DNA of 64,000 nucleotides, taken from positions 114,328,325-114,392,324 of the forward strand of contig CM075764.1 of NCBI GenBank assembly GCA_037974665.1, given 5' to 3'. This document shows positions 17,551 through 38,010 of this stretch, one piece after another. The notes below the pieces were generated by a model. The model worked only from the letters and a program-made list of their open reading frames with translations. It ran no database searches and was not told the DNA's origin. A program made the position numbers and the translations under genes. Numbering within the stretch: position 1 is the first letter of the stretch; each line of letters begins with the position of its first letter. The stretch is from Ehretia macrophylla. Taxonomy: Eukaryota; Streptophyta; Magnoliopsida; Boraginales; Ehretiaceae.

Positions 17551-17599
17551 ATGACATTATCTCAGGGCACCTTACTGTCTTGAATTGTTGTTTAGGTGA

Positions 17600-18270
17600 T
17601 TTCATCTACATACTTTCAATGATTAAGACTGGGCAAGTGCTACTCACAAGGAGATCAACTACTGGTTTCACTGTATTCCTAGGCCCTAATCTGATCTCCT
17701 AGTGTTTTAAGAGGCAGCCAACAACGGTAAGATTTTCCACAAAAGCATAATATAGGGCCATGACCCATACTGCAGTAGAAATAAAATGACTTTCTTATTT
17801 GTTACATGGTCTACATATTCTAGTGCCCAAACATGTGCTTCATTGTGACAATGTATCTGCTATAGAGCTAGATTATCACTTTGTCAGAGAGATGGTGGTT
17901 TCTAAGGCTCTGAACGTTTCCTATATCTCTTGAGCAGAACAAGTTGCTGATTTATTTACTAAACCTTTGGCCAAGACTCAGTTTCTCTATCTCAGAAGCA
18001 AGTTATCTATAGTCTTGAAGGGAATGATAAACATACTGCATAGTTTGATAAATTATAAGTTGTACAGCTAGCATACAACTAGCATTCTAGAAAGATTCTA
18101 GTTAATTAGGCTTGTATATAGAGCACATACTGCACATGCAAATCAGTTACTTATGCTGAAGTTGATTCCAGCTGCAATTGAGATCCAAAAATATCTCATT
18201 TGGCTTATAAATATCTTGTAAGCCTTATTTCAGAAACATAATAATGAAATCACATTTTTCTCTTTCATAG
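17600..18270 (+). pseudogene. Decayed Copia RNase H end with 3' LTR (duplication copy 1)
   Basis: The plus strand reads RRSTTGFTVFLGPNLISW, then HCDNVSAIELDYHFVREMVV, then AEQVADLFTKPLAKTQFLYL, which are copia RNase H motifs with stops and deletions. A short purine run and an LTR-like start TGATAAACATACTG follow at 18025. The LTR fades out near 18270. The lineage differs from Copia-1 and Copia-2. The copy at 32449-33420 is homologous. Confidence 0.75.
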
Positions 18271-18650
18271 GAGGTCCCAATTGGTAGTCAATCCTCTCCC
18301 TCCCTTTTCAAAAAAATGCATATAATAAGATCGAAAAACTTTTATACCTTTGTAGATCTTGTAACTTGTAATTATGAATCTTATGCATGTGAATTATATT
18401 TTTTTTAACAAAATTGAAATATATCTATCAGGTAAAATGGTAAACAGTACATAGATAAATTAATTTTCATGATGACAAGACGCATTCCAATTGAAAAAGA
18501 TTTGGATGATAATGCAATTTAAACTACTTAAAAAGGTAGTTTATTATAATGAAATTTTTGTTACGTGTAAAGATACAGGACTATTTTTTGCCACGTTTTA
18601 GTGAAAGATAAATGTAGGGTTACTAAAGCTCTTATAATAATAACTGGCTT

Positions 18651-18778
18651 TTGAAACATATAGATTGATAACTGTGAATTCATCCTATTTTGTTCATTGC
18701 GTCATAATTTTGTTTTGAAACATATAGATTGATAACTGTGACTTCATCCTATTTTGTTCATTGCGTCATAATTTTGTT
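18651..18778 (+). repeat. 64-bp tandem duplication
   Basis: A unit beginning TTGAAACATATAGATTG occurs at 18651 and 18715 with one substitution. The corresponding place in duplication copy 2 (near 33770) has a single unit, so this duplication postdates the segmental duplication or was lost there. Confidence 0.9.
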
Positions 18779-18912
18779 CAAGACCTGAATTCTACCTGCA
18801 CCAGTGGTAGAATTAGATATAAGAATAATGCATATTTTATTGTTTATGATGGTATGCTTTTAATATGTGAATGGCATGATACATCTTATTTGTGATATAA
18901 TTTAAGTCTTGT

Positions 18913-19948
18913 TGTTAAGCCAATTAGATTGATTGGTAATTGATTAATTGATTCGAGATTTTTAAGACAATTATTGATTGGCTATGTTTTGCAAAACTTA
19001 TGATATTACCATACTTGTGCTTTTACCTTTTATATTGTGCAGGAAAATCTTATGGTATCTTACCATATGAGAAGAAGATTTGTGCTAATTAAGGAATGAC
19101 ATTTAGTGCATATTCACATAGAAAATACGAATAAGGTTTTATGAGTAAAGGTTTTTCTTGCAGTCCAAGACAATATGCAATAGCAATCTTGTATTTATAT
19201 AGCAGCAATCACGGCAGAAAAGATGAGGCAGAAACAGAGAGTTACAAGATAAAATACAAGAGAGTTTTATGTCCAGTGTTCCAAGTGATGTTGCAACACG
19301 ATCTGTAGTTGAGTGCTTGATTGTATTAAGTGTTGCAATTTTATTTTATTTGACGGTAAGACATGAGTAATTTGTATGAGTCTTTGAGTGATTAGTTTAC
19401 TGTCTCTTTTATTCATTCTTTGGGAGAAGAAGGTGTAGTTCTCGGAAGAGAATGTTGCAAGTCGAGGGGAGCTCGCCCAATCGAAGTTCGTTAAGGAGTT
19501 CTTCATCTAGGCGTCAAAGATCAAGAGTGAGTCTTTACTTGTGTAAGTCCATTGATATTGTAACTTGTTGTTTCTTAATGAACAGGTTTGTTGGACCAGG
19601 GGAAGTCCCGTGGACGTAGACCGCACGGTTAAACCACGTTAAATCTTGGTATTCTTTATTTCTGTTGTAGCTTTTTATTTCCGCTGTTGTTTACTGTTGC
19701 TACTTATGTTGGAACATGAAGTGGAATAAACTAACTAAGCAATTAGATTAACAGATTGTTAATGGTCTGTGATAGAACTAATATTCCAGTTAATGTTACA
19801 ACATCACTTATAACAGAATTGTAACAGAATCAGTTTACACCAAGTTATTGCATATGTTTTTAGTTTTCATCACAGAGCTTCATCGATTAAGCAGATTAGC
19901 CATCTTGCTGAGAAATTAATCCATACTTATACTGCACAAATTTTAACA
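18913..19948 (+). repeat. 5' LTR of element A
   Basis: A 1036-bp LTR starting TGTTAAGCCAATTAG and ending TTTTAACA. It differs from the 3' LTR by scattered substitutions and short indels, by eye roughly 5% divergence, so the insertion is moderately old. Confidence 0.9.
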
Positions 19949-19950
19949 AG

Positions 19951-19963
19951 TGGCATCAAGAGC
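19951..19963 (+). other. Primer-binding site of element A
   Basis: TGGCATCAAGAGC starts 2 bp after the LTR. It is a variant of the initiator-Met type copia site TGGTATCAGAGC. Confidence 0.7.
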
Positions 19964-20026
19964 AGGTTACGAACTAATTCGGTTAGATTCTTGGGAGTTT
20001 TGAGTTGTTGTCTTGTAGAAATAGGT

Positions 20027-21370
20027 ATGGACACCTTGCGTGAGGGAGGCTCAATCACTAAACCACCGCTGTTGGATGATGCGAATTACTCTTATTGGAA
20101 GGCTCGAATGAAGGCATTCATCAAGTCAATTGATGAGAAGACTTGGAAAGTTATCTTGACTGGCTGGACATCTCCTACCAAAACAAATGTTCAAGGCAAT
20201 GTTGCAACAAAACCTGAAATAGAATGGACCAAGGATGAAGATCTTTTGGCAAGTTGGAACTCCAGGGCACTAAATGCAATTTTCAATACTGTTGACTTGA
20301 ATCAATTCAAGTTAATTTCAACGTGTGAATCTACTAAGGAAGCTTGGGAGATATTGCAAACAGCATATGAGGGTACAACATTAGTTAGAAGATCAAAATT
20401 ACAGATGCTTGCCACTAGATTCGAACAACTGAGGATGCAGGAGGATGAAACCATTGCGGATTTCAATGCCAATTTGTGTGACATTGCTAATGAATCTTTT
20501 GCTTTAGGAGAAAAGTATTCAGATTCAAAACTTGTGAGGAAAACCTTGCGCTCTCTTCTAGACATATTTGGAATCAAAGTTGCAGCCATAGAAGAGTCAA
20601 AAAATGTTGATGAAATCAAGATTGATGAACTGATGGGGTAACTCCAAACCTTTGAGATGAAGTTTAAGCAGAAGAAGAAAGAAAAAGGCATTGCTTTTCG
20701 GGCTGAAGAAAGAAAAGGAACAATAAGCTCTTCGGATGATGAGGACTCTGAAATCTCTGAATCTTTGGCCGTGATTACCAAGAATTTCGATAATGTTGAA
20801 AAAATGGGACAAGCGAAGAAAGGGATTTGGACAATCAAAAGGTGAAAGAAAGCCTTTTGTTGCAACACTGCCTGACACATTCAAAACCCAGAACTTTAAA
20901 CTGACTGATGAAAGAAAAAAAGGTAAAGGAATTCAATGCCGTGAATGTGGGGGGTTTTGGTCACATTTAAGCTGAATGTACAAATACCTTGAAGAAGAAG
21001 AAAAAGGTCATGAAAGTTACCTGGAGTGATGAATCGGAGGAATTCTCAGAGAGTGATGAAGAGCATACCAGTAACTTTGTTGCATTTCATGTTGCTACAG
21101 CATCTCGTGAAAACAGTCTAAATGAAGAAGCTGGTACAGCTGTTGCAGCACTGGATAAAACAGATGATGGAACTAGTGAATCTGATTGCCTTGAGTCAGA
21201 CAGTGATGATGAACTAGACAGCGAAGAAGTCATGAAAATGTACAAGAACATGTGCAAAAAATGGGTGATCATGTGCGAAAAGAACCAGGGACTGGAGCTG
21301 AAGATTCTTGAGTTGGAGGAACAAAAGGCTAAACTAAAAAACCTGGCTGAAGAAAGACTGATGGAAGTGT
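20027..21370 (+). pseudogene. Element A gag with zinc knuckle and coiled coil (frameshifted)
   Basis: The start ATG 20027 gives MDTLREGGSITKPP then NYSYWKARMKAFIKSID, the Sirevirus-type Gag N-terminus. The first frame ends with a stop near 20639. Similarity continues in other frames through a CRECGG zinc knuckle with a stop (about 20935) and an acidic, coiled-coil-like segment (20989-21370: WSDESEEFSESDEE, KMYKNMCKKW, ELKILELEEQKAKLK). The order and the W/C/L pattern after the knuckle match Sirevirus Gag. At least three disruptions mean no functional protein. Confidence 0.8.
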
Positions 21371-21639
21371 AGATGTTGCAACATGACTTAAAACAGATGC
21401 AGCAAAATATAAAAATGTTGAATTCTGGAACTGAGAAATTGGATCACATGTTATCCATTTAAAAATCGAGCAGTGATCATACTGGACTTGGTTTTTGTGA
21501 AGGAGAATCTTCTGGAAAAACTGTTTTTATCAAAAGTTCAAAAAATTCAGAATTATAGCATAAGGTTGCGACTGCACCCAATAACAGTCAAATTACCCTG
21601 GTTACTGATGTTACAACAACAATAGCAACATCGCAGAAA

Positions 21640-22800
21640 TAATTTAGGAAAAAGAAGAACAGGTTTGTTCCTATTTGTCATTTGTCTTATACCTGGACAC
21701 ATCAAACCTCACTGCTACAAACTCCAGAGAATGCTAGAAAAAGGTAAGTCTCTCAATCAGCAAAAGAGATCCTCACATATGTTTTCACAACACAAGGTAA
21801 AACAATTATGGGTGAAGAAATCTGATTTAACTTGTTTTGCTATTTATACTTCTACATAAGCCTGTGCTGTTAACTCTTGGTATTTTGATAGTGGGTGTTC
21901 TAGACATATGACAGGTATGCGTGAAGTTCTTATCAACTACAGGAAATGTGATGAAGGGCAAGTTATATTTGGAGATGGTGTTAAAGGACAAGTTCTAGGA
22001 AGAGGAACACTTGAAATTGAAGGATTTCTAAGACTCAAGAAAGTACTGCATGTTGAAGGGCTGAAGACTAATCTTATTAGTATTAGTCAATTGTGTGATT
22101 AGGGTTTGTTTGTGAAATTCACTAAAGATAGTTGTCATGTGTTAGATGTATCTAATAATTGTGTACTTACATGGAAAAGATCATCTGACAACTGTTACAT
22201 GCTTACACCATCTCATGAACAATCATTGCCATGTTACAACTGTGCAGTACGAGGTGTGCCAAAGCTAAGGAGTCAGCAGACAATAGAATTCGGTAGAAAA
22301 AGGAAGGACCAATAAGATGAATGCTGAAGACATTGGTTCATGAAATGTTACAACAAGCAGTGTAACAACTGAAGTTAGCACTAAAGAAATTCAAGCTGAA
22401 ATGCCTCAAGTTTACAAAAAAACATGCTGCAGAGGATGTGATTGGATCAATACATGATAGAATCCGAACTAGAGTTAAACCCAAGCTGAACTATAGGGAC
22501 ATGGTAAGGTATATATGCTACACTTCTCTTTTAGAACCCAAAAATGTGAAAGATGCTTTAGAAGATGAATTTTGGATAAATGTCATGCATAAGGAATTGA
22601 ATCAGTTTATCTGTGAACTTGTTGAAATTGGAACCATTGTTTTAGAATATGTTGCAATAGAAAAACAATTGACAGATATCTCCACTAAAGCTTTAGTTCT
22701 TTTGAGATTTGAAACCCTAAGAAAAGCTTTAAGGATTTGTAGTCTACAATGTTGCATCATGGATTGCCACAGGGCCATGAAAGAAACTTGAGAAATTTGA
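21640..22800 (+). pseudogene. Element A second zinc knuckle, protease, and integrase/RNase H scars
   Basis: A knuckle remnant (CLIPGHIKPHCYKL, about 21680) precedes protease WYFDSGCSRHMTG (about 21880-22100), which runs to LISISQLCD. After NCYMLTPS (integrase start, about 22200) the sequence jumps to the RT upstream region (IGSIHDRIRTRVK, LEPKNVKDALED, 22438-22610). It then jumps to the RNase H tail (EYVAIEKQLTDISTKAL, about 22640-22760). The catalytic cores of integrase, RT and RNase H are all missing, so at least two internal deletions occurred. Confidence 0.8.
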
Positions 22801-24894
22801 AAGGTTAATAATCAATTCAACTTGTGATTTAGTTTGTGAACCATACTTCCTTGTACACATTGAATATTGATTGAGAAAGCTAATCTTGATGGTCTGCAAG
22901 TGCAGGAGCTTGAACTTTCTGAATAGGGATAAAGAGAGAAGTCTCTCTAAATCCATTATTATATTCTATTCATCATTGAGATTTAAAAAAAATATAAAAA
23001 GAGTAAGAAATAATGTGGTTATCAAGCACTGGAAAGAGCTACCTAATCCAAAATAAAAGAGATTAGTGTGAAAGCTACCAGTTGCAACATGAGCTGAAAT
23101 AGTGAAAAAATACATGTGAAAAAGAAATACAGTGTGCAAGCTACCAATTACAACATGAGCTGACACAAGAAAAATATTATGTTTTCCTACGAGATGAATA
23201 GATGATCAGGTATGTTTGAGCTGATTGCGAGAGTTCCTACACCTTGAAGGTTTGATGGTGAAAGCTATCTATTTCAGAATTCAATTTCGCATACATACAC
23301 ACATGGTTCATTAATTAAATCTTGGACTGAAATGAGTATTGATGAGTACAGTTTCTTGAGTGACTTCATGCTTCCTGAACATATCATGCATTTTAATTTT
23401 TGAAAGAAAACAAAAAAAAAACACACAAAAAAACAAAAAAACAAAAAACACAAAAACATGGTAAGATCTCAGGGGATTTTGAGCAAATTGGAGATACTGT
23501 GAAAAATATTGTTGCAACATCGGTTCTAAATTGCTTTTGGATAATATGATGCAGCCTTTGTCAATGATGTTTTTTTTGTATTGCTGAACAATTTGGTTTA
23601 CAGTTTTTACTATTTTTCTGACAATTTGCCTCTTTGCCTTTGCTTCATGAGACTTACAGTTTACATGCTTAATTGTGTCATTCTACTATCGTGTTGGTTA
23701 GTTGTTACAATTGTGCTACTTAACTGCTCAAAAGGTTGTCCACGATCAGGTTGAATCCCTTGTGAAGTTGTCTTTTCCATTCCATCTTTCTCACAAGTTT
23801 TTGCAGGAAGTTGATATTCAGGAGGAGCCTCGAGCTGAAGGCAATGTTGGACCAGCTTCTGAAACAACTACTGTTGCATTGTTGCAATAGGTGCAGCAAT
23901 TTCATAATGAAGTCCATGAGTTGTGCAACGATCAAGCCACTATTGAAGTCAATCAGGAGAAGATAATGGCTGACCTTAGGACGTTGATACAAGGACAACA
24001 GACCCTACTCGATTTCGTCTCCAAATACACTGTTTGACTGTTGTTTGTTTAATGATTATCGCTCTGATACTTTACTGATTTTAGTTATGCTTTGGTATTT
24101 TACTATGTTTAAATTTTGCTGCTCTACTTTGGGTCCATGTTTGTGTTTGCTGATTTCTGCTAAATCCTTTGGTCTGGTACTTTGCGTTTCTACTTTGGTT
24201 TCTTTTGGAAAAAAGGGGAGACTGTTATTGCTATTACTATGTGCTAGTTGTTGCTTGAGGGGGATAATATGCTATTGATTTGCTATGATTTGTTGCGTCT
24301 TATTTCCTTTTTGCTCTATTGCCTGTGTTTCTATGATGGTTTACTGATTGTTGCAAGAGGATTACCATCTTTGGGTTACTATCTTTTGCAAGATCATTAT
24401 ATTTGTTGTTTTGATATTTTTTTATCTATGTTTCCATTTATGCTATATTGTTGCACCAGGATTATCTTTGCTTTGATACATCCTTATATGTGTTGCTGAA
24501 GAATTTCTTTTTTATGTCTCTACTACTCTGCTATTGTTACTGATCACTTATGTTGCTAGCTTTATTGCTCTGATCATTTGCCTCTAATTCTTTGCCTTTG
24601 GTTTGGAAAAAAGGGGGAGAATTATGTTGTGTTGTGCTGCTACTGCTTTGTTATCTTTTACAGGAGCACTATATTTTTTACCCTGATACATTTCTATCTG
24701 TGTTCCACTGCGTGTTGCAACAGGCTGATAATTGCTCTGATGCTCTCCTGTTTGTGTTGCTTTAACACTGTTGGTCTATGGAATGTTGCAACAAAATCGT
24801 TATTTGTTGCACTTGCCATTATGTACTTGGGCAGTAGGAGGTTACATTGACTGTGATATCAGGGTTTTGCCAAAACAAAGCCAAATGGGGAGAT
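22801..24894 (+). other. Element A 3' noncoding region with repeated purine runs
   Basis: No domain is recognised; the open frames are short and of low complexity. Purine runs of the polypurine-tract type occur at about 24209 (AAAAAAGGGGAGA), 24255 (GAGGGGGATAA), 24607 (AAAAAAGGGGGAGAA) and directly before the 3' LTR at 24884 (AAATGGGGAGAT). Multiple tract-like motifs upstream of the 3' LTR are a described property of Sireviruses. The octamer GTTGCAAC recurs here. Confidence 0.65.
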
Positions 24895-25919
24895 TGTTAA
24901 GCCAATTAGATTGATTGGTGATTGATTAATTGATTGGAGATTTTTAAGGCAATTATTGATTAGCTATGTTTTGCAAAACTTATAATATTACCATACTTAT
25001 GCTTTTACCTTTTATATTGTGCAGGAAAGTCTTATGGTATCTTACCATATGAGAAGAAGATTTGTGCTAATTAAGGAATTACATTTAGTGCATATTCACA
25101 AGGAAAATAAGAATAGGGTTTTATGAGTAAAGGCTTTTCTTGCAGCCCAAGACAATATGCAGTAGCAATCTTGTATTTATATAGCAGCAATCACGGCAAA
25201 AAAGATGAGGCAGAAACAGAGAGCTACAAGAGAAAATATAATAGAGTTTTCTGTCCAGTGTTCCAAGTGATGTTGCAACACGATCTATAGTTGAGTGCTT
25301 GATTGTATTAAGTGTTGCAATTTTGTTTTATTTGACAGTAAGACATGAGTAATTTGTATGAGTCTTTGAGTGATTAGTTTAATGTCTCTTTTATTCATTC
25401 TTCGGGAGAAGAAGGTGTAGTTCTCGGGAGAGAACATTGCAAGTTGAGGAGAGCTCGCCAAATCGAAGTTCGTTAAGGAGTTCTTCATCTAGGCATCAAA
25501 GATCAAGAGTGAATCTTTACTTGTGTAAGTCCATTGATGTTGTAACTTGTTGTTTCTTAATGAACATATTTGTTGGACTAGGGGAGGTCCCGTGGACGTA
25601 GACCGCACAGTTAAACCACGTTAAATCTAGGTGTTCTTTATTTCTGTTGTAGCTTTTTATTTCCGCTCTTGTTTACTGTTGCTACTTATGTTAGAACATT
25701 AAGTGGAATAAACTAACTAAGCAATTAGAGAAACAGATTGTTAACGGTCTGTGATAGAACTGATATTCCAGTTAATGTTGCAACATCACCTGTAACAGAA
25801 TCAGTTTACACCAAGTTATTGTATCCGTTTTTAGTTTTCATCACAGAGCTTCATCGATTAAGCAGATTATCCATCTTGCTGAGAAATTAATCCATACTTA
25901 TACTGCACAACTTTTGACA
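24895..25919 (+). repeat. 3' LTR of element A
   Basis: A 1025-bp copy of 18913-19948, ending TTTTGACA, followed by the target duplication CTTGC at 25920-25924. Confidence 0.9.
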
Positions 25920-26618
25920 CTTGCAAATACTTAAAGTTTGACAGTATAATTAGTTTTGTAAACTGAATTTAAGGTAAAAAGAAGATTATGATTTCAGATT
26001 ATTTGCTAGCATTTAGAAAAGAATGTTTATACCTCTGCTATCAACCCACAAAAATATTAATAGAGAAGGATGAACTTTATTTTGCAGGCAAGGCAACTTA
26101 ACCTTTCAGGTGATTTTTATTTACTAAAAAAAGACGGGTTGACTATCTATTTGAAACCAGGTTTTGCATTTGCCGAGAGTAAGCCATATCCCCTAGACAT
26201 ATTTGGTACTCTTCATCCTTATCATCCCGGATATTGAAACTGACATCCAAATATTTCTGAGCTACCATTAACGTCCTCCAAATTCGCAACAATTAACGAT
26301 TGTAGTCTCTATTTTCTCTTTCCCTTTACCCCGTAACCAAATAAAATATAAGAGTAGCAGCATGTTCCATAAGAAATTAGAGGACAGGTAATGATGAAGC
26401 TTATATGTGGATACAACCCAAGCAATTTTCCACCTAATCCACAAGCAAGAGGTCCATCAGTATCAAAATCTGTAGACAAGTCAAAAAGTAATTAACGCAA
26501 TTAGGATAGGTTCTCAATTGATTTTGTAAACTCCTGCTTAAAGTCTTTTTACTTGTACTAAATGATTGTAACCCAAAAGACATCGATTGATACATGTAAT
26601 TATAATAAAAGTACGGTT

Positions 26619-27210
26619 ACATTTTGTTAGCAACAAAACCATGTGGTTTCTCTTGGGGTCTTCTTCCCCTATCCTCACCGGCCATAGATGGGCACCGCTC
26701 ACCAAATTTTCTTGGTTTTGGGGCTTCAGTTTCTACCCGAAGTCCCCTTTATCTCTCTCTCTCTCTCTCTTTCCCTCTCATACTTTTTGGTTTTTACTTT
26801 CTCTCTATTTTTCTTATGTACAAATTTAGATTTACTTATGATGTTGTGATTTTTGATGTGTTGATGTTATGTACATATCATTAATTGCTGTTAGATACTA
26901 TTCGGAGTCCTCAAATTGTGACTAGAGTTTTCTCTTTGTTGTTCACAATCCTTGTCAATACCTATCTTTCTCGTCTGGCCACACCCGACTCTTTTCAATG
27001 CGAATCACCTCTGTGGTAGTTTGGATTGTTTTAGCAATTCTGATAGGTCCATTTTCCCTTGTACGGTAATTTTCACCCCTCTTAACATTGTTTGTACTGT
27101 TTGTATATTTTCTAGTTAGTTTGAGTGTATTTCTCTTGGACTTTTGTATAGTTCAAGCCCAATCAATCTTTGTATGTTTTGTTTTTAATTAATAATATTA
27201 TTCTTGACAA
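26619..27210 (+). mobile_element. Poly-A-ended retroposon (LINE-like 3' fragment or retrosequence)
   Basis: An insert of about 590 bp ends CTTGACAAAAA and is bounded by a 12-bp duplication, AAAAGTACGGTT (26607-26618 and 27211-27222). Duplication copy 2 has the related uninterrupted sequence (AAAAGAACGATT, about 37530). A long target duplication with a terminal A run indicates insertion by LINE machinery. No RT or known protein is encoded. A (TC)n run lies near 26752. It may be a 5'-truncated LINE tail or a retroposed transcript. Confidence 0.75.
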
Positions 27211-27397
27211 AAAAGTACGGTTCATGATTTTTTTTAAAAAGGCAAAAACGTATAGTCACCAACTAGACTAGGATATTAAAAGTTGGTTGGCATTGTGAAA
27301 GTTACATTTTTCCATTAGATATTTGGCTAAAGCCGTTTGCAATCATCAAGTCAACAATTGATATCTTGATCATCGGGTGGTTGGTTGCATGTCTTAT

Positions 27398-28062
27398 ATA
27401 TATTTTTTTTCTTTTGGTCAACGAGATTTATTTCTAACAACAAAACCGTTAACTAATACTAGCGGCATGCAACACTACATAAACTACCAAGTACTCCTAT
27501 ATGTGATGGTTAAAATCTGGCTCCTTCATGCTGGATGTATCTCAATTTCATAACCTTGACTTTCAATCACAAATATACAAAAAAAAAAAATTATTTTTTC
27601 CATTTGTTTGAGTCTTCTTTCTAAGAAGTGAGAAAGGACATCCATTAAAACATAAATTTACATATTCATGAGTGAATTTGTAACTACAGACAGCCCAACT
27701 GACTTCCTAAACAAAGGCTTGTTTGAGTCTTCTTTCTGAGAAGTGAGAAAGGACAGTCGAGATTGCAAGGAGACATGAGAGAGCACGAAAAGTATACAGA
27801 TTTTATTATGAAGATTGTGTATTACTTGGTGCCTAAGTTGTAGAGACTAACTATGGAAATATACATGAGATTACTTGGTGTCCAAGTTGTAGAGACTAAC
27901 TATGGAAATATACAACTATGGTAAGTAATACAACTAGAATAATAGTACAATCGTGTAGTACAACTGTACATACGCTAACAAGGACATCCATTAAAACATA
28001 AATTTACATACTCACGGGTGATTCTGTAACCACAGACAACCTAACCGACTTACTAAACAAAG
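27398..28062. repeat. Repeat cluster next to the gypsy element
   Basis: An 82-bp unit beginning AAGGACATCCATTAAAACAT occurs at 27638-27718 and again at 27981-28062. The segment ahead of the first copy (TTGTTTGAGTCTTCTTTCT) recurs at 27719. A 40-bp unit with TAGAGACTAACTATGGAAAT is tandemly repeated at 27831 and 27871. A partial third copy of the 82-bp unit lies at 1599-1641, before the Copia-1 LTR. No gene is seen. Confidence 0.7.
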
Positions 28063-28295: not shown

Positions 28296-29713
28296 TTACG
28301 AATGTATCACGTAATCAGCAAGGGCCTTGGGAGGCTTTATCACACGCTCACTTCTTCGTGCCTGGGCTGGTATATGGACTGATTGGGCCTTAGTCTGGTT
28401 AGCAGTGGACCTGGACTGATGGATGATGGTCGTAACATTGCCTCGCCCTTTTTTGGGAACCTTGTCCTCAAGGTTCAAGTGAGGAAACTGTTGTTGGATG
28501 ACAGAAAAATCCTCCCAAGTAGCATCTGAAGCCTGGAGGCTTTCCACCTGTATCAATACCTGGTGGTAAGCGTCCTTGTCGCTGAATATGTCGCTATGCC
28601 AAGACATCCACAGGTTGGAGAGTACGAGTAGTTGGTGTGGAGATCAGGGGCAGATGAATCACCTGATTAGCTGGTGTACCAACACATTTTTTTAACATAA
28701 AAATGTGGAACACTGGGTGGATTCGAGCAGTGGAAGGTAATTCCAATTTGTAATCCACCTGGCCAATCCATTGAAGAACACGAAAAGGCCCAAAATAACG
28801 AGCTCTGAGTTTGTGATAGCGCTGTAGTCGAGTTGATAGTTGACGGTAAGGCTGGAGCTTAACGAGGACCTAGTCATCAACTGCAAAAGTAAGATCTCGA
28901 TGATTTTTATCAGCTTGAGCTTTCATATGTGCTTGGGCACGCCTCAGGTTATCATTGAGCTGCAAAATCAGCTTATCCCGTTGAACCAAGTGTTGTGCCA
29001 CTGAATCGTTATCTGTAGAATCAATGAGATAACGTTGGATTGTAGGAGGTGGATGACCGTAGAGGGCTTGAAAGGGAGACATCCCTGCAGCTGTATGGAA
29101 TGCCGTATTATACCAGTATTCTGCCCATAGGAGGTACTGTACCCAAAGTGTAGGTTGTTCGTGAACAAAAGAACACAAATACATTTCGAGGCATTTGTTG
29201 AGGGCCTCAGTTTGACCATTTGATTGCGTATGGTGGACACTGCTCATAGATAAGGAGGTGCCTTGTATACGAAATATTTCTTTCCAAAAACTGCTCAGGA
29301 AGAGAGGATCACGATCGCTAACAATGGATCGGGGAAGTCCATGAAGACGGATGATTTCCTTCATAAAAACCATGACAACTGTTGTACTTGTAAAACTACT
29401 TGGCAATGCACAAAAATGTCCATACTTCGTCCACAACCACCAAAACAGTAGATTTTTCATTTGAAGATGGTAGTCCAACAATAAAATCCAGGGAAATGTC
29501 CTCCCAAACCTGCTCCGGGAGTGGTAATGGTTGTAAGAGACCAGCCGGAGAAGCTTGAGAGGATTTTATTTGTTGACAAATCATACAGGCTGCTACAAAT
29601 TCATAAACTTCCTTGCGCATATGAGGCCAATAAAAATTGGTAGAGAGCCGTTTGTACGCGCGGAGAGATCTCGCGTGTCCACCAAGCTTCGAGTTGTGGA
29701 ACTCCTGTAACAA
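28296..29713 (-). pseudogene. Gypsy integrase and chromodomain-like tail
   Basis: The zinc-binding region is at 29396-29713 (HNSKLGGHA then CMICQQIK), followed by the first catalytic Asp in SLDFIVGLP. A frameshift near 29460 leads to 28870-29481, with the second Asp in SIVSDRDPLF and the Glu in NGQTEALNKCLE. After further breaks (28692-28886) the tail at 28296-28607 reads QVESLQASDATWEDFSVI then NLEDKV, typical of the chromovirus chromodomain. All three catalytic residues are present, but the frame is broken at least twice. Confidence 0.85.
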
Positions 29714-29874
29714 CTGAAATTTAAGAGGAGTGAAGTTCGGAATATAGAGTTTGTGCTTATAGTAGAGAAGGCCCTGTTTGCTAGAAAGCTGAGGAAAGGT
29801 TGTGGGGCATTCTGCAAGTTATTGATGACAGGTAACCAACTGTGGATCATTGAGATTAGCTTGCCTCAGTTCAT

Positions 29875-31200
29875 TCACAAAATCAAATTGAGGAGTACTG
29901 AAAGCCAAGAGAGTATAAAGTTCCGCCGGGACCAAGCATCAGCCACTATATTCTCCCTACCCGGACGGTATGCAATATCAAACACATAGCCAATGAGCTT
30001 TACTAACCAATTCTGCTGTTCCAGAGTTTGAATAGTTTGCTCGTTCAACTCCTTGAGACTGCGTTGGTCCGTTTTAATCGAAAATTGCCGGCCTAGTAAA
30101 TACTGACGCCATTTGGCAACGGCCTCCGTGATGGCATACATCTTGCAATGGTATGTTGAAGCTACTTGCATGCAAGGTAATAACTTCGTGCTGAAAAAAG
30201 CTATGGGATGTCCCTGTTGACTGAGGACTGCGCCAATGCCCACAGCTAAGGCATCTGTCTCTAAAATAAACTGCTGCAAAAAATCTGGAAGAGCTAAAAT
30301 AGGGGCCGTTGTCAAGGCCTACTTAAGCCGATCGAATGCTTGTTAGGCTGTGTCAGTCCACTTAAAAGAGTCTTTATGCAACAGATCAGTTAACGGACTT
30401 GCAATAATGGCATAACCCCGAATAAAGCGCCGATAATAACCAGTGAGGCCCAAAAATCCATGAAGGGCTCAGACTGAAATAGGAATAGGCCACTCGGCAA
30501 CAGCCTGTACCTTAAGTAGGTCCATTTGTACTCCCAAACCCGTCACGACATGGCCCAAATAGTCAATTTGGGGCTGCCCAAAAACACATTTAGAACGCTT
30601 GGCCACAAAATGATGCTAAAGCAAAAGCTGCAAGATAGTTTCAAGATGTGCCAAATGTGTGGCCTGAGTAGAACTATACACCAAAATGTCATCAAAGAAA
30701 ACCAAGACAAATCGACGAAGATAAGGCCGAAAAATATCATTCATAATTGACTGAAAGGTAGAGGGAGAATTTGTTAACCCAAAAGGCATTATCAAATATT
30801 CGTAGTGGCCACCATGAGTGCGAAATGCTATTTTATGAACATCTTCGGGCCTAACTCTAATTTGATGATACCCCGACAAGAGGTCCAGTTTAGAGAAGAC
30901 TGAAACTCCGTGGAGTTCGTCTAATAGTTTATCAACGGTAGGAATAGGGAAACGATCTTTGACGGTAGTAGCATTAAGGGCACGATAATCCGTGCAGAAT
31001 CGCCACGTCTTATCTTTCTTTTTTACCAACAAAATCGAGGACAAGAAAGGACTGGTGCTCGGCTGTATAACCCCATCCTTCAACATTTCAGAAACCAACC
31101 GTTCAATTTCAGATTTTTGACAATGTGGGTATCGGTAGGGGCGAACATTAACTAGTGGTGTATCGGGAAGTAAGTGTATGACATGATCTTATGGGCGTCT
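29875..31200 (-). pseudogene. Gypsy reverse transcriptase and RNase H
   Basis: RT at 30616-31098 shows [52 protein letters not shown] and the catalytic FFDDILVYS. It continues with stops to RNase H at 29875-30315, with LETDALAVGIGAVLSQ (catalytic Asp), the YAITEAV Glu and IKTDQRSLKEL, ending VADAWSRR. The gap 30316-30615 still aligns to the RT thumb/connection in broken frames. Confidence 0.85.
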
Positions 31201-31339
31201 AGGGGAAAGTCCTTGAGGTTTTTGAAAGACAGAGGTGTATTTGTCTAAAAGCTTGGTAAGGGCAGTGTCTGGGTTAAGTGTAGGAGTAGTGTTGGGTTTA
31301 TCGGTTGAAGGTGAAAGAATGAGTCCACCGTGTCCGTTT

Positions 31340-32010
31340 CTGTCAATCGACAAAACTGTGAAACTTCATAGGGCGAGGAGCATTTTCACGAATCCCTTGC
31401 AAGCAAACATCATGACCTTCATGAGTAAAGGTCAGGGTAAGATCATTATAGTCGTGGAGGACGTTACCTAATGATGCAATCCACTGTACACCAAGCACAG
31501 TGTCAGCACCATGAAGTGACAACACATAGAGATCCAAGGTAAAGGAAAAATTCTAAATGTTGAGCTCAATATTGCGCACACGACCCTTACAAATAAGAGT
31601 ACCACCGTTTCCTACTATCACACCAAATCAAGGATATGTTTCGATAGGAAGACCCAAATGGCGAACAATTCTACTATGGATGAAATTTTTAGCAGAGCCG
31701 CCATCCACAAGTACCTAAACCACTGCTCCAGCGACTGTTGCATGGAGCCGGATTGTCGCAGGTGACAGCGAGCCGCCGAGAGCATGAAATGATGCCTTAG
31801 TAACCGGCTGAAGCTCCGCGAGTTGCAATTGCTCTTCTAATTCATCATCAGGTGGGTCATTGGCGTCATCAAGGAGGTCGGGATCGAACAGATAGAGGCG
31901 TGGGGTTTGACAACGGTGGCCGAGGACCCACTTATCGTCACAGTTGTAAAATAAACCAAGTCCTCGGCGTTTTTGTATTTCTGAAGCAGAGAGTTTGCAG
32001 ACAGGAAAGT
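31340..32010 (-). pseudogene. Gypsy Gag zinc knuckle and protease
   Basis: The minus strand from about 32000 reads a knuckle with the first Cys lost (LGLFYNCDDKWVLGHRC). A linker follows, then the protease region (VLVDGGSAKNFIHSRI, where the usual DSG/DTGA is altered to DGGS), then LHGADTVLGVQWIASLG at 31343-31537. The catalytic Asp is retained but its neighbour is changed. Gag upstream of the knuckle is absent. Confidence 0.75.
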
Positions 32011-32448
32011 GGGTTAGGGTAGTGTTTGGTGTATGGGTTGGGGTTGGTGTATGGAGTATTTGGGCTAAGTGTATAGGTTAAGGGTGGGCTTGGTGGGGTG
32101 GGTAACAGAGGACCCAAATTTTATCTTCATAGCACTAAAATTAGATGAAAAGGGTGGGCAAAACAAAAACATAAAAATAACCTAGCTCTTGATATTATTG
32201 CATGAGAATGCATACTAATTCACAGACCAAGTCACCTTAATAAAACTTGGACACATATCAAAGTTTCATTTATATTATCTTGAAAATTTTTGATCTGGCA
32301 TCAACCCATTTTATAAAGTAATCATTTTTATATGAAGGATAATGACCATAAAAGCATGGGAACTCCGGTAATGCAGCCCTAAATAGAAGATTAAGATACG
32401 TGAAGCCCCTTTTACAACAACCTAGTTCTTCAATCTCATTTTGGCCCA

Positions 32449-33420
32449 TTTCATCTCCATGTTTTCAATCATTCACACTGGGCCAGTGATACTCACACAA
32501 GGAGATTCACTACTGGTTTTACTATATTCCTAGGACTTAATATGATCTCCTAGTCTTAAGAGACAGTCAACAGCGACAAGATCCTCCATAGAAGCATAAT
32601 ACAGGTCATTGCCTGCTCTGCAAATGAAATAAAGTGGTTTTCTTATTTACTACATGATCTACATATTCTAGTGCCCATACATGTGCTTCACTGTGGCAAC
32701 GTATCTGCTATAGCCTTGGCCTCTAATCTTGTGTTTCATGGGAGAACTAAACACATAGAGCTGGATTATCAGTTTGTCGGGGATGGTGGTTTTTAAGGCT
32801 CTAAACATCCTTTGGCAAAACTCAGTTTCTCTATGTTAGAATCAAGGCTTGAAGGGATGATAAACATATTACGTTAGTTTGATAAATTATAAGTTGTACA
32901 ACTAGCATTCTAGAAAGATTCTAGTTAGTTAGGCTTGTATATAGAGCACACATACTGCACGTGCAAATCAGCTAGTTATGTTGAAATTAAAATTCAGTTG
33001 TAATAGCCACAAGACTTTGGTCCAGGTAATGTTACTCTCTTTTTATACGAGATGTTGCGAGTTTGAGTCTTCCTCGTTACATTGTACGACCTTAGACTTC
33101 TCCTAAATCAAAAAAAATCTAGTTGTAATGTGCACATGCTGAAACTGAAATTAGATTCCAGCTGTAATTGAGATCTAAAAATATCTCATTGTATCTTATT
33201 TCAGAAACATAATAATGAAATCACATTTTTCTCTCAAAATATATCTCTCTAGATATTTCAGAGGTCTCAATTGGTAGTCAATCCTAATCCAAAAATATCT
33301 CATTGTGTCTCATTTCAAAAACATAATAATGAAATCACATTTTTCTCTTAGAAATCTCAAAATATCTCTCTCTAGGTATTTCATAGGAGGTCTCAATTGG
33401 TAGTCAATCCTATCCTCCTT
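32449..33420 (+). pseudogene. Decayed Copia RNase H end with 3' LTR (duplication copy 2)
   Basis: Homologous to 17600-18270. Reads STTGFTIFLGLNMIS, then HVLHCGNVSAIALASNLVFH and HIELDYQFVGDGG with stops. It keeps a stretch around the HTKHIEL motif that copy 1 has lost. The LTR-like part begins at about 32857 (TGATAAACATATT). It contains a partial internal duplication and the SINE. Confidence 0.75.
33005..33120 (+). mobile_element. tRNA-derived SINE
   Basis: A 116-bp insert bounded by a perfect 9-bp duplication AGTTGTAAT (32996-33004, 33121-33129). It carries a box A-like TTTGGTCCAGGTAATG near 33015 and a box B-like GCGAGTTTGAGTC at 33057-33069, and ends with an A run (CAAAAAAAATCT). These are the hallmarks of a pol III-transcribed SINE. 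Duplication copy 1 lacks it. Confidence 0.75.
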
Positions 33421-33848
33421 TTCCAAAAAATGCATATAATAAGAGTGAAAAAATTTTATACCTTTGTAGATTTTGTAACTTGTAATTATGAAATTATATG
33501 AATGTGAGTTACATTTTTTTTAACAAAATTAAAATATATCTATCAAGTAAAATGGTAAACAATACTCAGATAAATTAATTTTCATGATGACAAGACGCAT
33601 TCCAATTGAAAAAGAGATGGATGATAATGCAATTTAAACTACTTAAAAATATAGTTTGGTATATTGAAGTTTTTGTTACGTGAACAGATACGGGACTATT
33701 TTTTGTCACGTTTTAGTAAAAGATAAAGGTATGGTTACTCAGAGCTCTTACAATAATAATTGGCCTTTGAAACATTAGAGATTAATCACTATGAATTCAT
33801 CCTATTTTATTCATTGCATTATAATTTTGTTCAAGACCTGAATTTTAT

Positions 33849-34144
33849 TGTAACGAACTAAGATTTTGAAGGAGAATAGAAAGACATAAAGAAAGGAAAA
33901 TTATAGAGAATTTAAGAAGAAGAACAAAATATAGTAAGTTGATGTTTTTGCTTAGTTTCCCTTTGATACTATCCACAAGGATATATAGTGCTTTTCATGT
34001 CACATGCTCAATGCTTAACAGATTCTAACTAACAGGATATGTGTGTGCTCTTTCTCACAGCTGGGCTAAGATGATCAACCGTACGTAGCTTGGGTTGGAC
34101 CATTATCATTAGTAGAGTAATCCACCGATATTAGGTTCATAACA
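33849..34144 (-). repeat. 3' LTR of element B
   Basis: 296 bp. Read on the minus strand it runs from TGTTATGAACCTAATATC to TTCGTTACA. It is about 93-95% identical by eye to 36524-36819. Confidence 0.9.
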
Positions 34145-34158
34145 TTACCTTCCCCTCG
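34145..34158 (-). other. Polypurine tract of element B
   Basis: On the minus strand CGAGGGGAAGGTAA immediately precedes the TG of the 3' LTR. This fixes the direction of the element. Confidence 0.7.
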
Positions 34159-34234
34159 AAACATCATCAATTGCATTGCCCACATTATTAGTTGCTCCCA
34201 AGAAGCCAACATCACAAGCCATAACTCTCTTATA

Positions 34235-34617
34235 GTGGAGTATACCATATCCAAATTACCTTGCTCATAAAATTCAAGTTTAGCTTTATACTTCCCTAAC
34301 ACTTCATCTAAATCTTTAGGATTTTCCCCTTTGTCTCTCGTTGCAATAATCTGTATGAATATTCCACCATCTTTATAGATGTCCTTCACATTAAACCATG
34401 ATAGCAATTCAACGTCAAACTGGAACGTAGCATTGGGCGGGGGCAAAATGGTTTGAGGAATGGTGAAAATAGCATTTTCACCCTTCTTGATACCAAAGGT
34501 CCCATTCCTTAATCACTTGTCCTTGGTCGAGGATGAATTTGAACGAAGTGCTGCTGTCATGTCTTGAATCAAGCTTAGTTCCATCCAGCAGTGTTCCTGT
34601 ATGATGCACGTCAACTT
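34235..34617 (-). pseudogene. Captured FKBP62/65 (ROF)-type fragment in element B
   Basis: The minus strand reads HHTGTLLDGTKLDSRHDSST then FKFILDQGQVIKEWD in one frame, a frameshift near 34495, then KKGENAIFTIPQTILPPPNA and FQFDVELLSWFNVKDIYKDG, ending KDLDEVLGKYKAKLE. These are FKBP-domain motifs (YTGTLLDGTKFDSS, GQVIKGWD, FDVELLSW) followed by the inter-domain VKDI-KDGG segment typical of plant ROF1/FKBP62 and FKBP65. The AYGESGSP-like loop expected after FTIPPEL is missing. The active site is therefore incomplete. In the host such proteins are peptidyl-prolyl isomerase co-chaperones; this piece has no predicted activity. Confidence 0.85.
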
Positions 34618-34644
34618 CATTGCCTGAGCATTGATACATGTCAA

Positions 34645-35320
34645 CTATGTACCAGCAAATGAGCCAATGCCCTTAAGAAATAGCTCATTCACAGTGTAAG
34701 AGTCTAGACACCCCCGTACTCCATCAACTTTGCAGAGTAAATTTTCCTCCATCCATTTATTTTCCCCAAAATCCTCCAAAACTTGCACATTGAATCTGAC
34801 ACAATTACTATCAACTTCTGCATCACAATCTCCTTCTGCAAGATTTTGATAAACTCTAATGTGTGTTGCAAGAGCATTTGATTCTCCACTAGACTTCTTC
34901 AAGCTAAAGACATTAGATCCATTAATTTCAATCTCAAGTTGCAACTTTATATCATTAGACCCCTGTTGCTCCATTACTATATTACCATTATTTGTCTCAT
35001 ACTCATAGTTGCTGCCGTCATGAAATTCATGATAATCATCCAAAGCTTCAGGAAAATAGCAATTGCCTGCATAATCAATCCATGCAATAGGCTGTTGCAT
35101 ACCGGTCCCCAAGTCCATCCGTGTCATGTGCAAGAAGTCTAAAACACATGAATCACCATTTAATTTCACCTCCGTTGTTGGCTTCTTTATTTGAAGATCT
35201 TTTTTGACTAATGCAACAATGTCATAAGAGAACTCAGACCATTCGCCCTTATCATAATACATCAAACATTGTGGAAGCCTACTCTTCTCGTAGTTAAAAT
35301 AATTTCTCAGCAAGGACTTT
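34645..35320 (-). pseudogene. Captured RCD1/SRO (WWE-domain) fragment in element B
   Basis: Within the open frame 34645-35496, residues from about 60 on match the N-terminal half of plant RCD1/SRO proteins. The WWE domain reads CLMYYDKGEWSEFSYDIVA, CVLDFLHMTRMDLGTG and PIAWIDYAGNCYFPE. The DIKLQLEIEINGS segment and the start of the PARP-like domain (LDSYTVNELFLKGIGSF) follow. The PARP-like and RST domains beyond this point are absent. RCD1 proteins are nuclear regulators of stress and transcription factor binding. The fragment is uninterrupted by stops for 283 codons and is in the element's sense orientation, so it could be translated from an element transcript. I infer no function. Confidence 0.88.
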
Positions 35321-35514
35321 TGAAGATAAAAAGTGTAGCCATCACAGTTGCTTCTTAGTCCGTCCAATGGATCCATGTGCACCCTGAAACTAGTAGGCAT
35401 ACATCCAAGATATTTCAAGTACGAATCTTGCAAGAATAATGGAGGATACGACAAAAATCCAGATGAAGGACTGGGTGCTTGACATTTCAAGAACACTTCT
35501 TAACCTAAGCCATG

Positions 35515-35650
35515 AATCCTTAATCCAAGACCTTACCCAAACTCCCAATTCAAGCGCACCCACGCTGGTACAAGTTGAAACCATATCCCTCACAAGAATT
35601 TCATCGAACAGTCGACACGCATCATCAATATCATGTTTTCTAACTACAAC
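35515..35650 (-). pseudogene. Probable captured PPR-gene fragment in element B
   Basis: The minus strand reads HDIDDACRLFDEILVRDMVS followed by TCTSVGALELGVWVRSWIKD. The first part matches the ARRLFDEMPxRDVVSW core of plant PPR proteins of the PLS class and the second their GALELGxWVHSYI segment, joined with a deletion between them. The match covers only about 40 residues, so it is suggestive rather than certain. Confidence 0.55.
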
Positions 35651-35680
35651 ACACTTCGCCGGGTTCTCATCTTCCTCATT

Positions 35681-36187
35681 TTATGCATCTTTATCGTCTA
35701 AAGCAGATTCTAAGTTGGTTAGTGTCTCCATTGGAACATTGCAAGAAATTTCCAATTCCTTGGGAACATCTTCGAATTCATCCACTTTCTTTTGCAATTC
35801 AATGATTACACTTTTCTTTCTCTCTTTATCCTTAAACTCAGTTTCGTCTTCAACAACTATCATTTCAGTATCTTTAACACCATACTTTTTGACAATAACT
35901 TCCTCTTCCTTCTGTCCATCATCTTGCCCCGAAGTCAACTCAACATTTGGCCCTTCGAACACAACACCCTCTTCCTGACCCGTATTTTCACCACCGACCT
36001 TCGAATCACCCATGAAGCAAGTCACTGTCCCCGGAAAACAACTGATTTCTATTTGAGTTTTACTATAATAGGCGGCCCATTGTGTACAGTGTTGCTGATT
36101 GTGATAAGCAGCAACATCACCAATGGCAATACAACCTGCGTATGGATCGAAGATATAGATTTGACTGTGATTAGAAGGGTACATCAT
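35681..36187 (-). CDS. Unassigned charged ORF of element B
   Basis: A 168-codon frame with an aromatic N-terminal part (PSNHSQIYIFDPYAGC, HCTQWAAYYSK), then a Glu/Lys/Asp-rich half (GQKEEEVIVKKYGVKD, VIIELQKKVDEFEDVPKELE). I recognise no domain. It may be element-specific Gag-like sequence or another captured host piece. It ends 30 codons before the PPR-like stretch, in the same frame. Confidence 0.4.
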   Translation of the reverse strand: MMYPSNHSQIYIFDPYAGCIAIGDVAAYHNQQHCTQWAAYYSKTQIEISCFPGTVTCFMGDSKVGGENTGQEEGVVFEGPNVELTSGQDDGQKEEEVIVKKYGVKDTEMIVVEDETEFKDKERKKSVIIELQKKVDEFEDVPKELEISCNVPMETLTNLESALDDKDA

Positions 36188-36190
36188 GTA

Positions 36191-36493
36191 CTAACCTCCA
36201 TGCCACAAGTGTGCCTGGTTATCGTAGGCGCCGATTGCATAACTTCTAAATGTACAGTAATCGCCATAAGTGGTCGTCATCATCGTTGAAGAAGTGGATG
36301 AAAGGACATTAGGTGCCACAAATTTCTCTACTAGGAGCTGCAACTGATCGAGTTTGCCATCAATCGCCTTGAGCTTAGAAGTGAGAGCGCCACGGATTTG
36401 TTGAAAATTATCGACCCTGCGAGCATTTCGTGTTGTAGTTTCTAGAAGTTTCTTCACCCTCTTCTCCATAGCGTCAAGTGTTGTTCCGTCCAT
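36191..36493 (-). CDS. Coiled-coil-like first ORF of element B
   Basis: From ATG 36493 (MDGTTLDAMEKRVKKLLETT) the 100-codon frame has heptad-like helices (LTSKLKAIDGKLDQLQLLVEKFV). It starts 31 bp inside the LTR boundary and 13 bp past the primer-binding site, as the first frame of gypsy-type elements often does. It resembles the short helical N-terminal region of gypsy Gag proteins but has no zinc knuckle. Confidence 0.45.
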   Translation of the reverse strand: MDGTTLDAMEKRVKKLLETTTRNARRVDNFQQIRGALTSKLKAIDGKLDQLQLLVEKFVAPNVLSSTSSTMMTTTYGDYCTFRSYAIGAYDNQAHLWHGG

Positions 36494-36505
36494 CTTGAGT
36501 TCGAT

Positions 36506-36523
36506 TCTCAATGAAAGCACCAA
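36506..36523 (-). other. Primer-binding site of element B
   Basis: TTGGTGCTTTCATTGAGA on the minus strand directly adjoins the 5' LTR end. This type of sequence occupies the primer-binding position in plant gypsy-type elements. The matching tRNA was not determined. Confidence 0.65.
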
Positions 36524-36819
36524 TGTAACGAACTAAGATTTTGAGAGGGAATAGAAAGACATAAAGAAAGGAAAATTACAGAGAATTTAATAAGAAGAAC
36601 AAAATAGAATAAGTTGATGTTTTTGCTTAGCTTCTCTTTGATACTATCCACAAGGATATATAGTGCTATTCATGTTACATGTTCAATGCTTAACAAATTC
36701 TAACTAACAGGTAACGTGTGTGCTCTTTCTCACAGTTGGGCTAAGATGATCAACCGTACGTAGCTTGGATTGGGCCATTATCATTAGTAAAGGAGTCCAC
36801 CAATATTAGGTTCATAACA
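36524..36819 (-). repeat. 5' LTR of element B
   Basis: 296 bp, the same length as the 3' LTR, with matching ends. The target duplication copy TCTAT follows at 36820-36824. Confidence 0.9.
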
Positions 36820-38010
36820 TCTATCTGCACCAGTAGGTAGAATTAGATATAAGAATATTGCATATTTTATTATATAATTTAAGTCCTGCAAATACTTAAA
36901 GTTTGACAGTATAATTAGTTTTGTAAACTGAATTTAAGGTAAAAAGAGGATTGTGATTTCAGACATTTGTTAGCATGTAGAAAAGAATGTTTACACCTCT
37001 GCTATCAACCTCAAAAATATTAATAGGGAAGGATGAGCTTTATTTTGTAGGCAGGGCAGCTTAACCTTTCAGGTGATTTTATTTACTAAAAAAAGACGGG
37101 ATGGCTACTTATCTGAAACTAGGTTATGCATTTGTTAGAAATAAGCCTCATTCCTTGTATACATTTGGTGTACTTTTTCTTTACCGGCATGGGATATTGA
37201 GGTTGGGATCTAAACATTTTTGAATTACCATTAACATCCCCCAAATTCGCAGTAATTAGCGGTTTATAGTCTCGATTTTCTCTAGCATGTTCCGTAAGAA
37301 ATTAGAGGAGAGGTAATGATGAAGCTTATATATGGATACAGCCAAAGCAATTTTCCACTTAATCCACAAGCAAGAGATCCATTAGTATCAAAATCTGTAG
37401 ACAAGTCAAAAAGTAATTAACGCAATTAGGATGGGTTCTGAATTGATTTTGTAAACTTTCGCTTAAACTCTTTTTACTTCTGCAAAATGATCGTAACTCA
37501 AAAGATATCGATTGATACATGTGATTATAATAAAAGAACGATTCAGTATTTAAAATTAAAAAAAAAGGAAAAAAAACGTATAGTCACCAACTAGACTAGA
37601 ATACTAAAAGTTGGATGGCATTGCGAAAGTTACATTCTTCCATTCGATAAAGAACTATAGACAATCGTCTATATTGTTTATATTCAATTATAGATTTTGG
37701 AATGATTAAAAATAAATAAAAATTATAGATTTTGGCTAAAGCCGTTTGCAATCATCAAGTCAACAATTTATATCTTTGATCATCAGTTGGTTGTTTGCAT
37801 GTCTTCTGTTAAAGTAAGGCACAATGCACAATTAAATCAACTAATGCCTCGCATTGGAAAGTTCCAAGTAATAATCAACACTTAGTTTAATAATTCGCAG
37901 CCATTCTATTATTTTATTTATACCTATAATGAATGGCATTGGGATATTAATGTTATTTCCTATGAACGTGTTGCGCTTGGATTTTTATCAATCTAAGAAA
38001 CGAACTGGGG

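Follow-up and report, generated by a model that had tools for sequence, protein, structure and literature searches.

How do pieces of several unrelated host genes come to lie, all in the same orientation, between the two long terminal repeats (LTRs) of an element that lacks pol? The question is raised by a stretch of 64,000 nucleotides of the Ehretia macrophylla genome (assembly GCA_037974665.1, contig CM075764.1, positions 114,328,325 to 114,392,324 of the forward strand; hereafter the window), in which positions 33849-36819 are occupied by a pol-less LTR retrotransposon of 2.97 kb with the minus strand as its sense strand, here called element B. A preliminary description had proposed that B captured parts of several unrelated host genes, and this is supported by the present analysis. 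B is very probably a non-autonomous element derived from Ty3/gypsy retrotransposons, whose interior was replaced by a leader frame and by exon pieces of host mRNAs (a PPR gene, probably SCC3, RCD1, and FKBP62), and it belongs with many other elements of this genome to a large clan with differing cargo mosaics, which are often joined in one long frame. The clan keeps the LTRs, the primer-binding site (PBS), the ATG of the leader and, in most members, the last pol codons before the polypurine tract (PPT). The best reading is a capture of spliced mRNAs like that known from the maize element Bs1, at an unusual scale.

The insertion itself is well defined. B has LTRs with TG..CA ends, a short target-site duplication (TSD), a PBS, a PPT, and a formerly empty site (Table 1); the LTR pair, TSD, PBS, and PPT had already been noted. 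Read on the minus strand, the LTRs start with TGTTATGAACC and end with TTCGTTACA. Their alignment, 33849-34145 against 36524-36820, gives 92% identity, and the 296 sites compared include 23 differences (17 transitions and 6 transversions; Kimura two-parameter distance (K2P) 0.083), which corresponds to about 3.2 or 6.4 million years depending on which of two substitution rates is applied. The TSD comprises 5 bp with one mismatch between the copies. The PBS-like motif TTGGTG(C/T)TTTCATTGA is also present in three other elements of the genome (L009, L010, and L013; L numbers denote loci and C numbers contigs), and a tRNA-like extension of the PBS of B beyond base 18 was dropped because it is absent from L010 and L013. 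The window contains a duplicated segment (17599-27716, 17.6-27.7 kb, versus 32448-37805, 32.4-37.8 kb), and in the copy without B the unoccupied target near 18.8 kb reads GACCTGAAT-TCTAC-CTGCACC, while the occupied site reads GACCTGAAT-TTTAT-(element B)-TCTAT-CTGCACC. The insertion of B is therefore younger than the segmental duplication. The first duplicate holds another LTR element (LTRs at 18912-19948 and 24894-25919) at a different point than B.

Pack-MULEs have terminal inverted repeats and 9-bp TSDs, and Helitrons have 5'-TC..CTRR-3' ends; the ends of B are LTRs with a 5-bp TSD. Terminal-repeat retrotransposons in miniature (TRIMs) are very short elements with short LTRs and without coding capacity, and B with its 2.97 kb, 296-bp LTRs, and relatives with long frames is not of this kind. 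In agreement with the preliminary description, no pol domain was found by Pfam in the scanned frames of B, which thus does not show the reverse transcriptase and integrase of its own that characterise a Ty3/gypsy element.

In sense direction, the leader frame of B is followed by a PPR piece, an SCC3-like piece, an RCD1 piece, and an FKBP62 piece, and the captured pieces are all in sense orientation as originally described. The RCD1 piece matches Pfam WWE_5 at 8e-30 and 30 database proteins, of which the named ones are from plants. The FKBP piece matches FKBP_C at 4.5e-9, and a second FKBP open reading frame (ORF) matches a wheat FKBP in the PDB at 4.6e-28. The identities of both had been recognised correctly from the letters, but the boundaries given, 34645-35320 and 34235-34617, had to be redrawn. 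At the boundary between the two pieces B reads ...TGCTCAGG / CAATGAAGTTGAC / GTGCAT.... The PPR piece, called probable before, has gained support from designed PLS-type PPR proteins in the PDB (6.3e-10, a sum across repeats of which no individual stretch reaches the threshold) and from two genome matches, one of 31 aa with 61% identity within an open frame of 705 aa and the other of 43 aa with 49% within a frame of 173 aa. The SCC3-like piece had been missed. It reaches 0.0042 with Pfam SCD in B and 1.2e-4 in the sister copy L009, and is 73% identical over 30 aa to C17:18273964-18274056; protein database searches gave no match to it in B. SCC3 is probably the fourth captured gene. Multi-gene capture stands, and the former count of two or three is probably too low: at least three and probably four unrelated host genes contributed pieces to B, probably as processed messages. 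The leader frame has no relative in the protein database at E<=0.1 (892 candidates); its acidic part together with the PPR recurs at other places in the same genome. The frame of B is broken both by the stops in this 5' frame and by shifts close to SCC3, where RCD1 ends, and within FKBP.

Table 1. Features of element B and of its insertion site (window positions)
Feature	Position	Strand	Remarks
TSD copy TTTAT	33844..33848		flank of B
3' LTR	33849..34144	-	296 bp
PPT CGAGGGGAAGG	34148..34158	-	adjoins 3' LTR
FKBP62/65-type fragment	about 34272..34622	-	first FKBP domain and start of next, without introns
RCD1/SRO fragment	34623..35366	-	744 bp; WWE domain to just short of PARP domain
Probable SCC3 (cohesin, SCD) fragment ...SYPPLFLQDSYLKYLGC	35401..35505	-	about 30 codons, frame-shifted in B
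PPR (PLS-type) gene fragment	35506..35641	-	PDB and genome matches
5' leader frame	35642..36493	-	ATG beside PBS, acidic region, two in-frame stops
PBS-like TGGTGCTTTCATTGAGAA	36505..36522	-	immediately after 5' LTR; putative
5' LTR	36524..36819	-	296 bp
TSD copy TCTAT	36820..36824		other flank of B

A comparison with the RCD1, FKBP62, and PPR parents had been proposed in the preliminary description. The parent genes are unlinked and were found at C1:44.30 Mb (RCD1), C17:30.59 Mb (FKBP62), C13:58.23 Mb (BIG), and C12:4.02 Mb and C11:3.22 Mb (CSN4). Parental introns are absent for FKBP62 and, in relatives of B, for BIG, CSN4, and an aldo-keto reductase. The FKBP62-type parent shows three exon matches. 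Both of its introns have GT..AG borders. The first (840 nt, CAAG/GTTAGT...TTCAG/GACAAG) is missing from B, L009, and L013, and the second (97 nt, TTTG/GTATAC...CTCAG/TGAAG) is bridged in L009 and L013 at the DNA level and in B at the protein level (residues 36-118). A further acceptor site of this parent is located where the GTGCAT of the element starts; no exon upstream of it was detected in the 7 kb examined. The BIG parent matches in three exons separated by 4155 and 176 nt, the CSN4 parents match in two each, and the frame of L019, whose CSN4 and BIG pieces span the parental intron positions, is uninterrupted. Similarly, the aldo-keto reductase parents are split by 258 nt where the frame of L077 continues. 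The RCD1-type parent shares 91.6% DNA identity over 748 columns with the piece in B. According to tblastn with three homologues, residues 1 to about 365 are encoded there by one exon and the PARP part by a later one, so that the gene has several exons. The captured stretch falls within the first of these detected exons, and both of its ends are internal to this exon and not at splice sites.

The element spread after capture. Further copies, a search for which had also been suggested, do exist: L009 (C17:28.28 Mb) is a whole-length sister with the complete block (91.7% over 3017 aligned columns), and two copies at C17:24.67 and 21.97 Mb (L013 and L018) share the RCD1-FKBP join through to the 3' end. 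The same join is thus present in B, L009, and L013 at the DNA level and in L018 at the protein level. Upstream of it, L013 contains CNOT1 (PDB, 3.3e-6) and magnesium chelatase H (CHLH; Pfam, 6e-33), with similar sequence in L018. Of 226 candidate places with B-type LTRs, 40 were scored, and 13 stretches surrounding such LTR matches were read. L010, L014, L019, L020, and L021 have such LTRs without the block of B, apart from short shared parts, a PPR stretch of 79 nt in L014 and an FKBP stretch of 33 nt in L019. L010 carries a proteasome piece. In L019, FKBP, PPR (6.8e-13), CSN4, and BIG are above the cut-off and an actin-type piece is just below (25.9 of 27 bits). L020 combines BIG and ARP2 in one frame of 855 aa within the interior (897 codons in a separate analysis), L021 contains an actin-family piece, and L014 a PPR-like one below cut-off. 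The LTR ends of L020 and L021 are not exactly delimited, so that their K2P values are approximate. LTR-PBS and PPT-LTR borders were seen in several of these copies, and seven of the eight delimited interiors end with an NLEDKV-type tail, the last pol codons before the PPT, B being the exception. A remnant of the gypsy integrase tail, SH3_Tf2-1, was found in L055 (8.1e-21) and, below cut-off, in L010, which has the same LTR as B.

At L015 (C3:44.46-44.47 Mb) a copia-type frame of 833 aa was seen by eye in a stretch bounded on either side by a B-type LTR. An HSP70 piece is close to it, and on the opposite strand there is, also by eye, a stretch with a PPR-derived module (WWIPW, see below) and Ca-ATPase-like sequence. 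C1:5.02-5.60 Mb, which includes L021, contains about 23 separate places with L019/L020-type cargo in 0.6 Mb, several of them about 15 kb apart, and the element seems to have multiplied here by tandem duplication of a larger unit.

The clan was surveyed with a 34-base pattern of the tail and PPT (EDKV codons, 15 free bases, and GGTAATG, at most one mismatch), which has 284 plus 270, in total 554, matches in the 1.58-Gb genome and none when reversed. From the exact matches the first 30 listed, in contig order C1-C4, were taken as a sample, and frames of at least 80 aa in the 1.5 kb upstream of the tail were searched with Pfam. The 67 sense frames match 47 families at 1e-3 (the first 25 families listed), and 40 of these frames were also scanned singly; single results are available for 41 in all. 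Host-type domains above cut-off are found at 23 of the 30 loci (22 seen singly, counting L048 as first member, and L054 from a tally of two cupin members). These represent about 17 different cargos, since L048/L049, L050/L052/L062 (AICARFT), L053/L054, L059/L070, and L063/L067 share theirs. The domains include MTHFR, AICARFT, kinase, cupin, WD40, actin, GRAS, MOR2, aldo-keto reductase, and CSN4, and further cyclophilin, HSP70, raffinose synthase, EMP70, ANTH, copine, cullin, DAGK, DAGAT, and Ca-ATPase. NAGS, the Ca-ATPase in L056, BRO1/ALIX, DWF1, UGT, GOST, and the gypsy element of the window (see below) are labels given by eye without a match above cut-off. No match above cut-off was obtained for L060, L064, L074, and L075 in the frames scanned singly (one of the two frames of L064 was left out). 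Integrase families are present at three loci, L051, L058, and L072. These pol-bearing loci share the EDKV codons, the PPT, and the LTR start of the pattern with the other clan members, which supports a derivation of the clan from Ty3/gypsy elements; LTR starts vary among the subfamilies of the clan, and those of the three loci are unlike that of B.

A PPR-derived module ending ...WWIPW(S/T)... recurs in L010, L011, L015, L020, L069, L074, L075, and L077. The first about 50 residues of the L077 frame are found at 38 further places in the genome, with open frames of up to 1256 aa, and some of these places may be PPR genes. In L071 (375-1388) a Ca-ATPase piece stands beside a MULE-transposase-like stretch (25.5 bits, cut-off 27.6), and a piece of a transposon may have been captured here too.

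Domains were initially sought in sense frames only, and the antisense frames were scanned afterwards as a control. None of the 77 antisense frames (at least 80 aa, from the 30 loci and eight same-LTR interiors including B) matches a Pfam family at 1e-3. A sense frame of at least 300 codons is present in the 1.5 kb upstream of the tail at 18 of the 30 loci (in L051 and L058 it is pol), an antisense frame of this length at none, and seven loci are open across the whole 511 codons to the tail. As a weaker indication, the tail frame is the longest sense frame at 17 loci and not at the other 13 (L050-L056, L060, L061, L071-L073, and L076); of the three AICARFT sharers only L062 has it as the longest. 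The recognised pieces are in the tail frame in L013, L010, and L020. The L077 group has frames of 799, 807 (with one TAG inside the match), and 818 codons, other copies being broken. In L009, the leader, the stretch from PPR to RCD1, and the tail form one frame with FKBP out of frame. L019, L014, and L021 have one frame shift each and B has three.

In total, 15 distinct joins between host genes have both recognised pieces in one frame in at least one copy (three each in L013 and L019, two each in L077 and L076, and one each in L020, L055, L059, L061, and L069), where one third would be expected in frame by chance and the domain search through open frames is biased towards in-frame joins. Pieces were recognised by Pfam above cut-off, except CNOT1 (PDB match) and the 3' half of RCD1 (DNA match). 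Two of the 15 joins, CNOT1-CHLH in L013 and PPR-CSN4 in L019, have a stop between the pieces, and two are shifted in other copies (RCD1-FKBP in B and L009, BIG-ARP2 in L019). Across 12 stretches of nine copy pairs, 102.5 synonymous and 277.5 non-synonymous changes were counted in frame, compared to 111/269 and 99.5/282.5 in the shifted frames. The in-frame changes are like those in the shifted frames and thus give no sign of purifying selection after the copies separated.

The cargo could be explained by template switching. Intact gypsy relatives would supply particles, in which element RNA would be packaged along with cellular mRNAs, and the reverse transcriptase would switch among these plus-sense templates. 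Because the templates would be plus-sense mRNAs, the inserts would be spliced and in sense, and sense orientation is a prediction of such RNA-to-RNA switching. Later rounds and recombination between elements would then build the mosaics. Spliced pieces in sense would also result from read-through transcription (3' or 5' transduction) of elements adjacent to genes with subsequent splicing of the chimeric transcripts, and transduction is the route named for Bs1 in a review (PMC13317346). However, the host pieces are flanked on both sides by element leader and tail and their parents are unlinked, so that read-through would need many independent events and internal joining. In addition, RCD1 is cut within an exon at both ends and not at splice sites. 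Read-through is therefore an unlikely source. A role of the chimeric frame as a functional gene retained by the host, which has been proposed for Bs1, would fit the long frames of L020 and the L077 group and the excess of long sense over antisense frames, but with the broken frame of B and in-frame changes equal to shifted-frame changes for the time since the copies parted it was rejected as very improbable.

Mosaics of small pieces from many genes are known from Pack-MULEs and Helitrons (PMC13317346), and DNA-level capture by such elements or by repair-mediated filler DNA inside an LTR element could be imagined. It was rejected, and we give it hardly any credence, given the introns missing from the FKBP62, BIG, CSN4, and aldo-keto reductase pieces, the absence of Pfam matches among the 77 antisense frames, and a carrier with LTRs, 5-bp TSD, PBS, and PPT. 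Even less probable, to the point of being negligible, is an artefact in which ordinary host exons happen to be surrounded by an unrelated LTR pair. No point was found in its favour, and the empty paralogous site, the sisters with the same block, and the LTR-PBS and PPT-LTR borders in several copies led to its rejection.

Several points weigh against the capture of host mRNAs by a Ty3/gypsy-derived element as the origin of B. The 30-locus sample is not a random draw and several of its loci are sister copies, and B is outside this sample because it does not have the NLEDKV tail. The short PPR piece of B has no match in Pfam, NCBIfam, or the protein database, and the SCD scores in B and L009 are both under the Pfam cut-off. 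RCD1 is uninformative on introns because its parent has none inside the captured stretch. An autonomous element with the LTR of B itself was not among the 13 stretches read. L017 (C17:21.96 Mb) has gypsy-type gag/pol in a 12-kb stretch between B-type LTRs, which is tentatively read as a nested insertion because L013-type cargo is present on both sides. Finally, the data do not distinguish template switching from splicing of read-through chimeric transcripts.

The joins may have been held in frame during copying. Alternatively, the copies may be young and open frames more readily detected, and the data are undecided between both. A tentative and somewhat doubtful possibility is that element RNA is copied efficiently only if a single frame extends from the ATG of the leader, beside the PBS, as far as the pol tail that adjoins the PPT, so that only captures fusing in frame persist and multi-domain fusion proteins arise without benefit to the host. 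Such a filter could act, for instance, if early stops led to decay of the RNA or if the leader protein had to be translated from this very RNA.

The Bs1 element of maize is not known to have a full pol. Like B, it contains exon-only pieces of several unrelated host genes, three in this case, within an LTR element (PMC13317346, PMC4717578). By its published descriptions, on which this comparison is based, it has one cargo set, while the cargos of the clan differ, with at least four host genes above cut-off in L019 (and a fifth just below) and frames of up to 897 codons. The soybean TRIM GmaRetroS15 resembles B in its intronless exon pieces, of three genes, its 5-bp TSD, and its multiplication after capture (PMC4717578). 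Exon pieces of at least two unrelated host genes, intronless and between LTRs, are what B has in common with both. Gene-carrying TRIMs have 1.17-1.45 kb and comprise 30 elements of seven subfamilies in Medicago and soybean (PMC4717578); B is 3 kb long and clan members keep long open frames and the pol tail. Pack-MULEs and Helitrons are similar to the clan in that many elements each carry different sets of gene pieces (PMC13317346), but they are DNA transposons, and Pack-MULEs contain introns too (PMC4717578), in contrast to the LTRs, 5-bp TSD, and lack of introns here.

The NLEDKV 3' end of the pol-bearing Ty3/gypsy loci L051, L058, and L072 is of the type found in the clan, but these loci carry pol. 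By eye this is also true for a Ty3/gypsy element with integrase and an NLEDKV-like 3' end in the window (28296-32077, minus strand), which is possibly kin of the enzyme donor. Direct and inverted repeats with about 72-81% identity are densely clustered at 61145-61818 of the window.

NLR genes of pepper have reportedly been retroduplicated by LTR elements (PMC5664825). Exon-only capture by LTR elements as such is already known from Bs1 and TRIMs (PMC4717578, PMC13317346, PMC7264820, PMC3726574), and genome tallies list 672 and 1343 host genes caught (PMC3726574). At the level of abstracts, neither the pepper study nor these tallies mention multi-gene in-frame mosaics fused to a residual pol tail. 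A clan with in-frame mosaics of such breadth was not met in the literature on capture, covered mainly by titles and abstract openings and little for subscription papers. LTR capture has previously been described case by case (Bs1, few TRIMs) or in genome tallies (rice, sorghum). Here, one and the same element 3' end recurs at hundreds of places in a single genome, and most of the 30 sampled loci contain host-gene pieces. Because parents, sisters, an empty site, and pol-bearing kin are present in one assembly, the mechanism, the order of capture, and the question of the frame are directly testable. The clan is a standing source of fusion ORFs, which gene annotation may take for host genes. If the frame filter is true, a selfish element would combine parts of dozens of host genes into multi-domain fusion proteins from which the host gains nothing.

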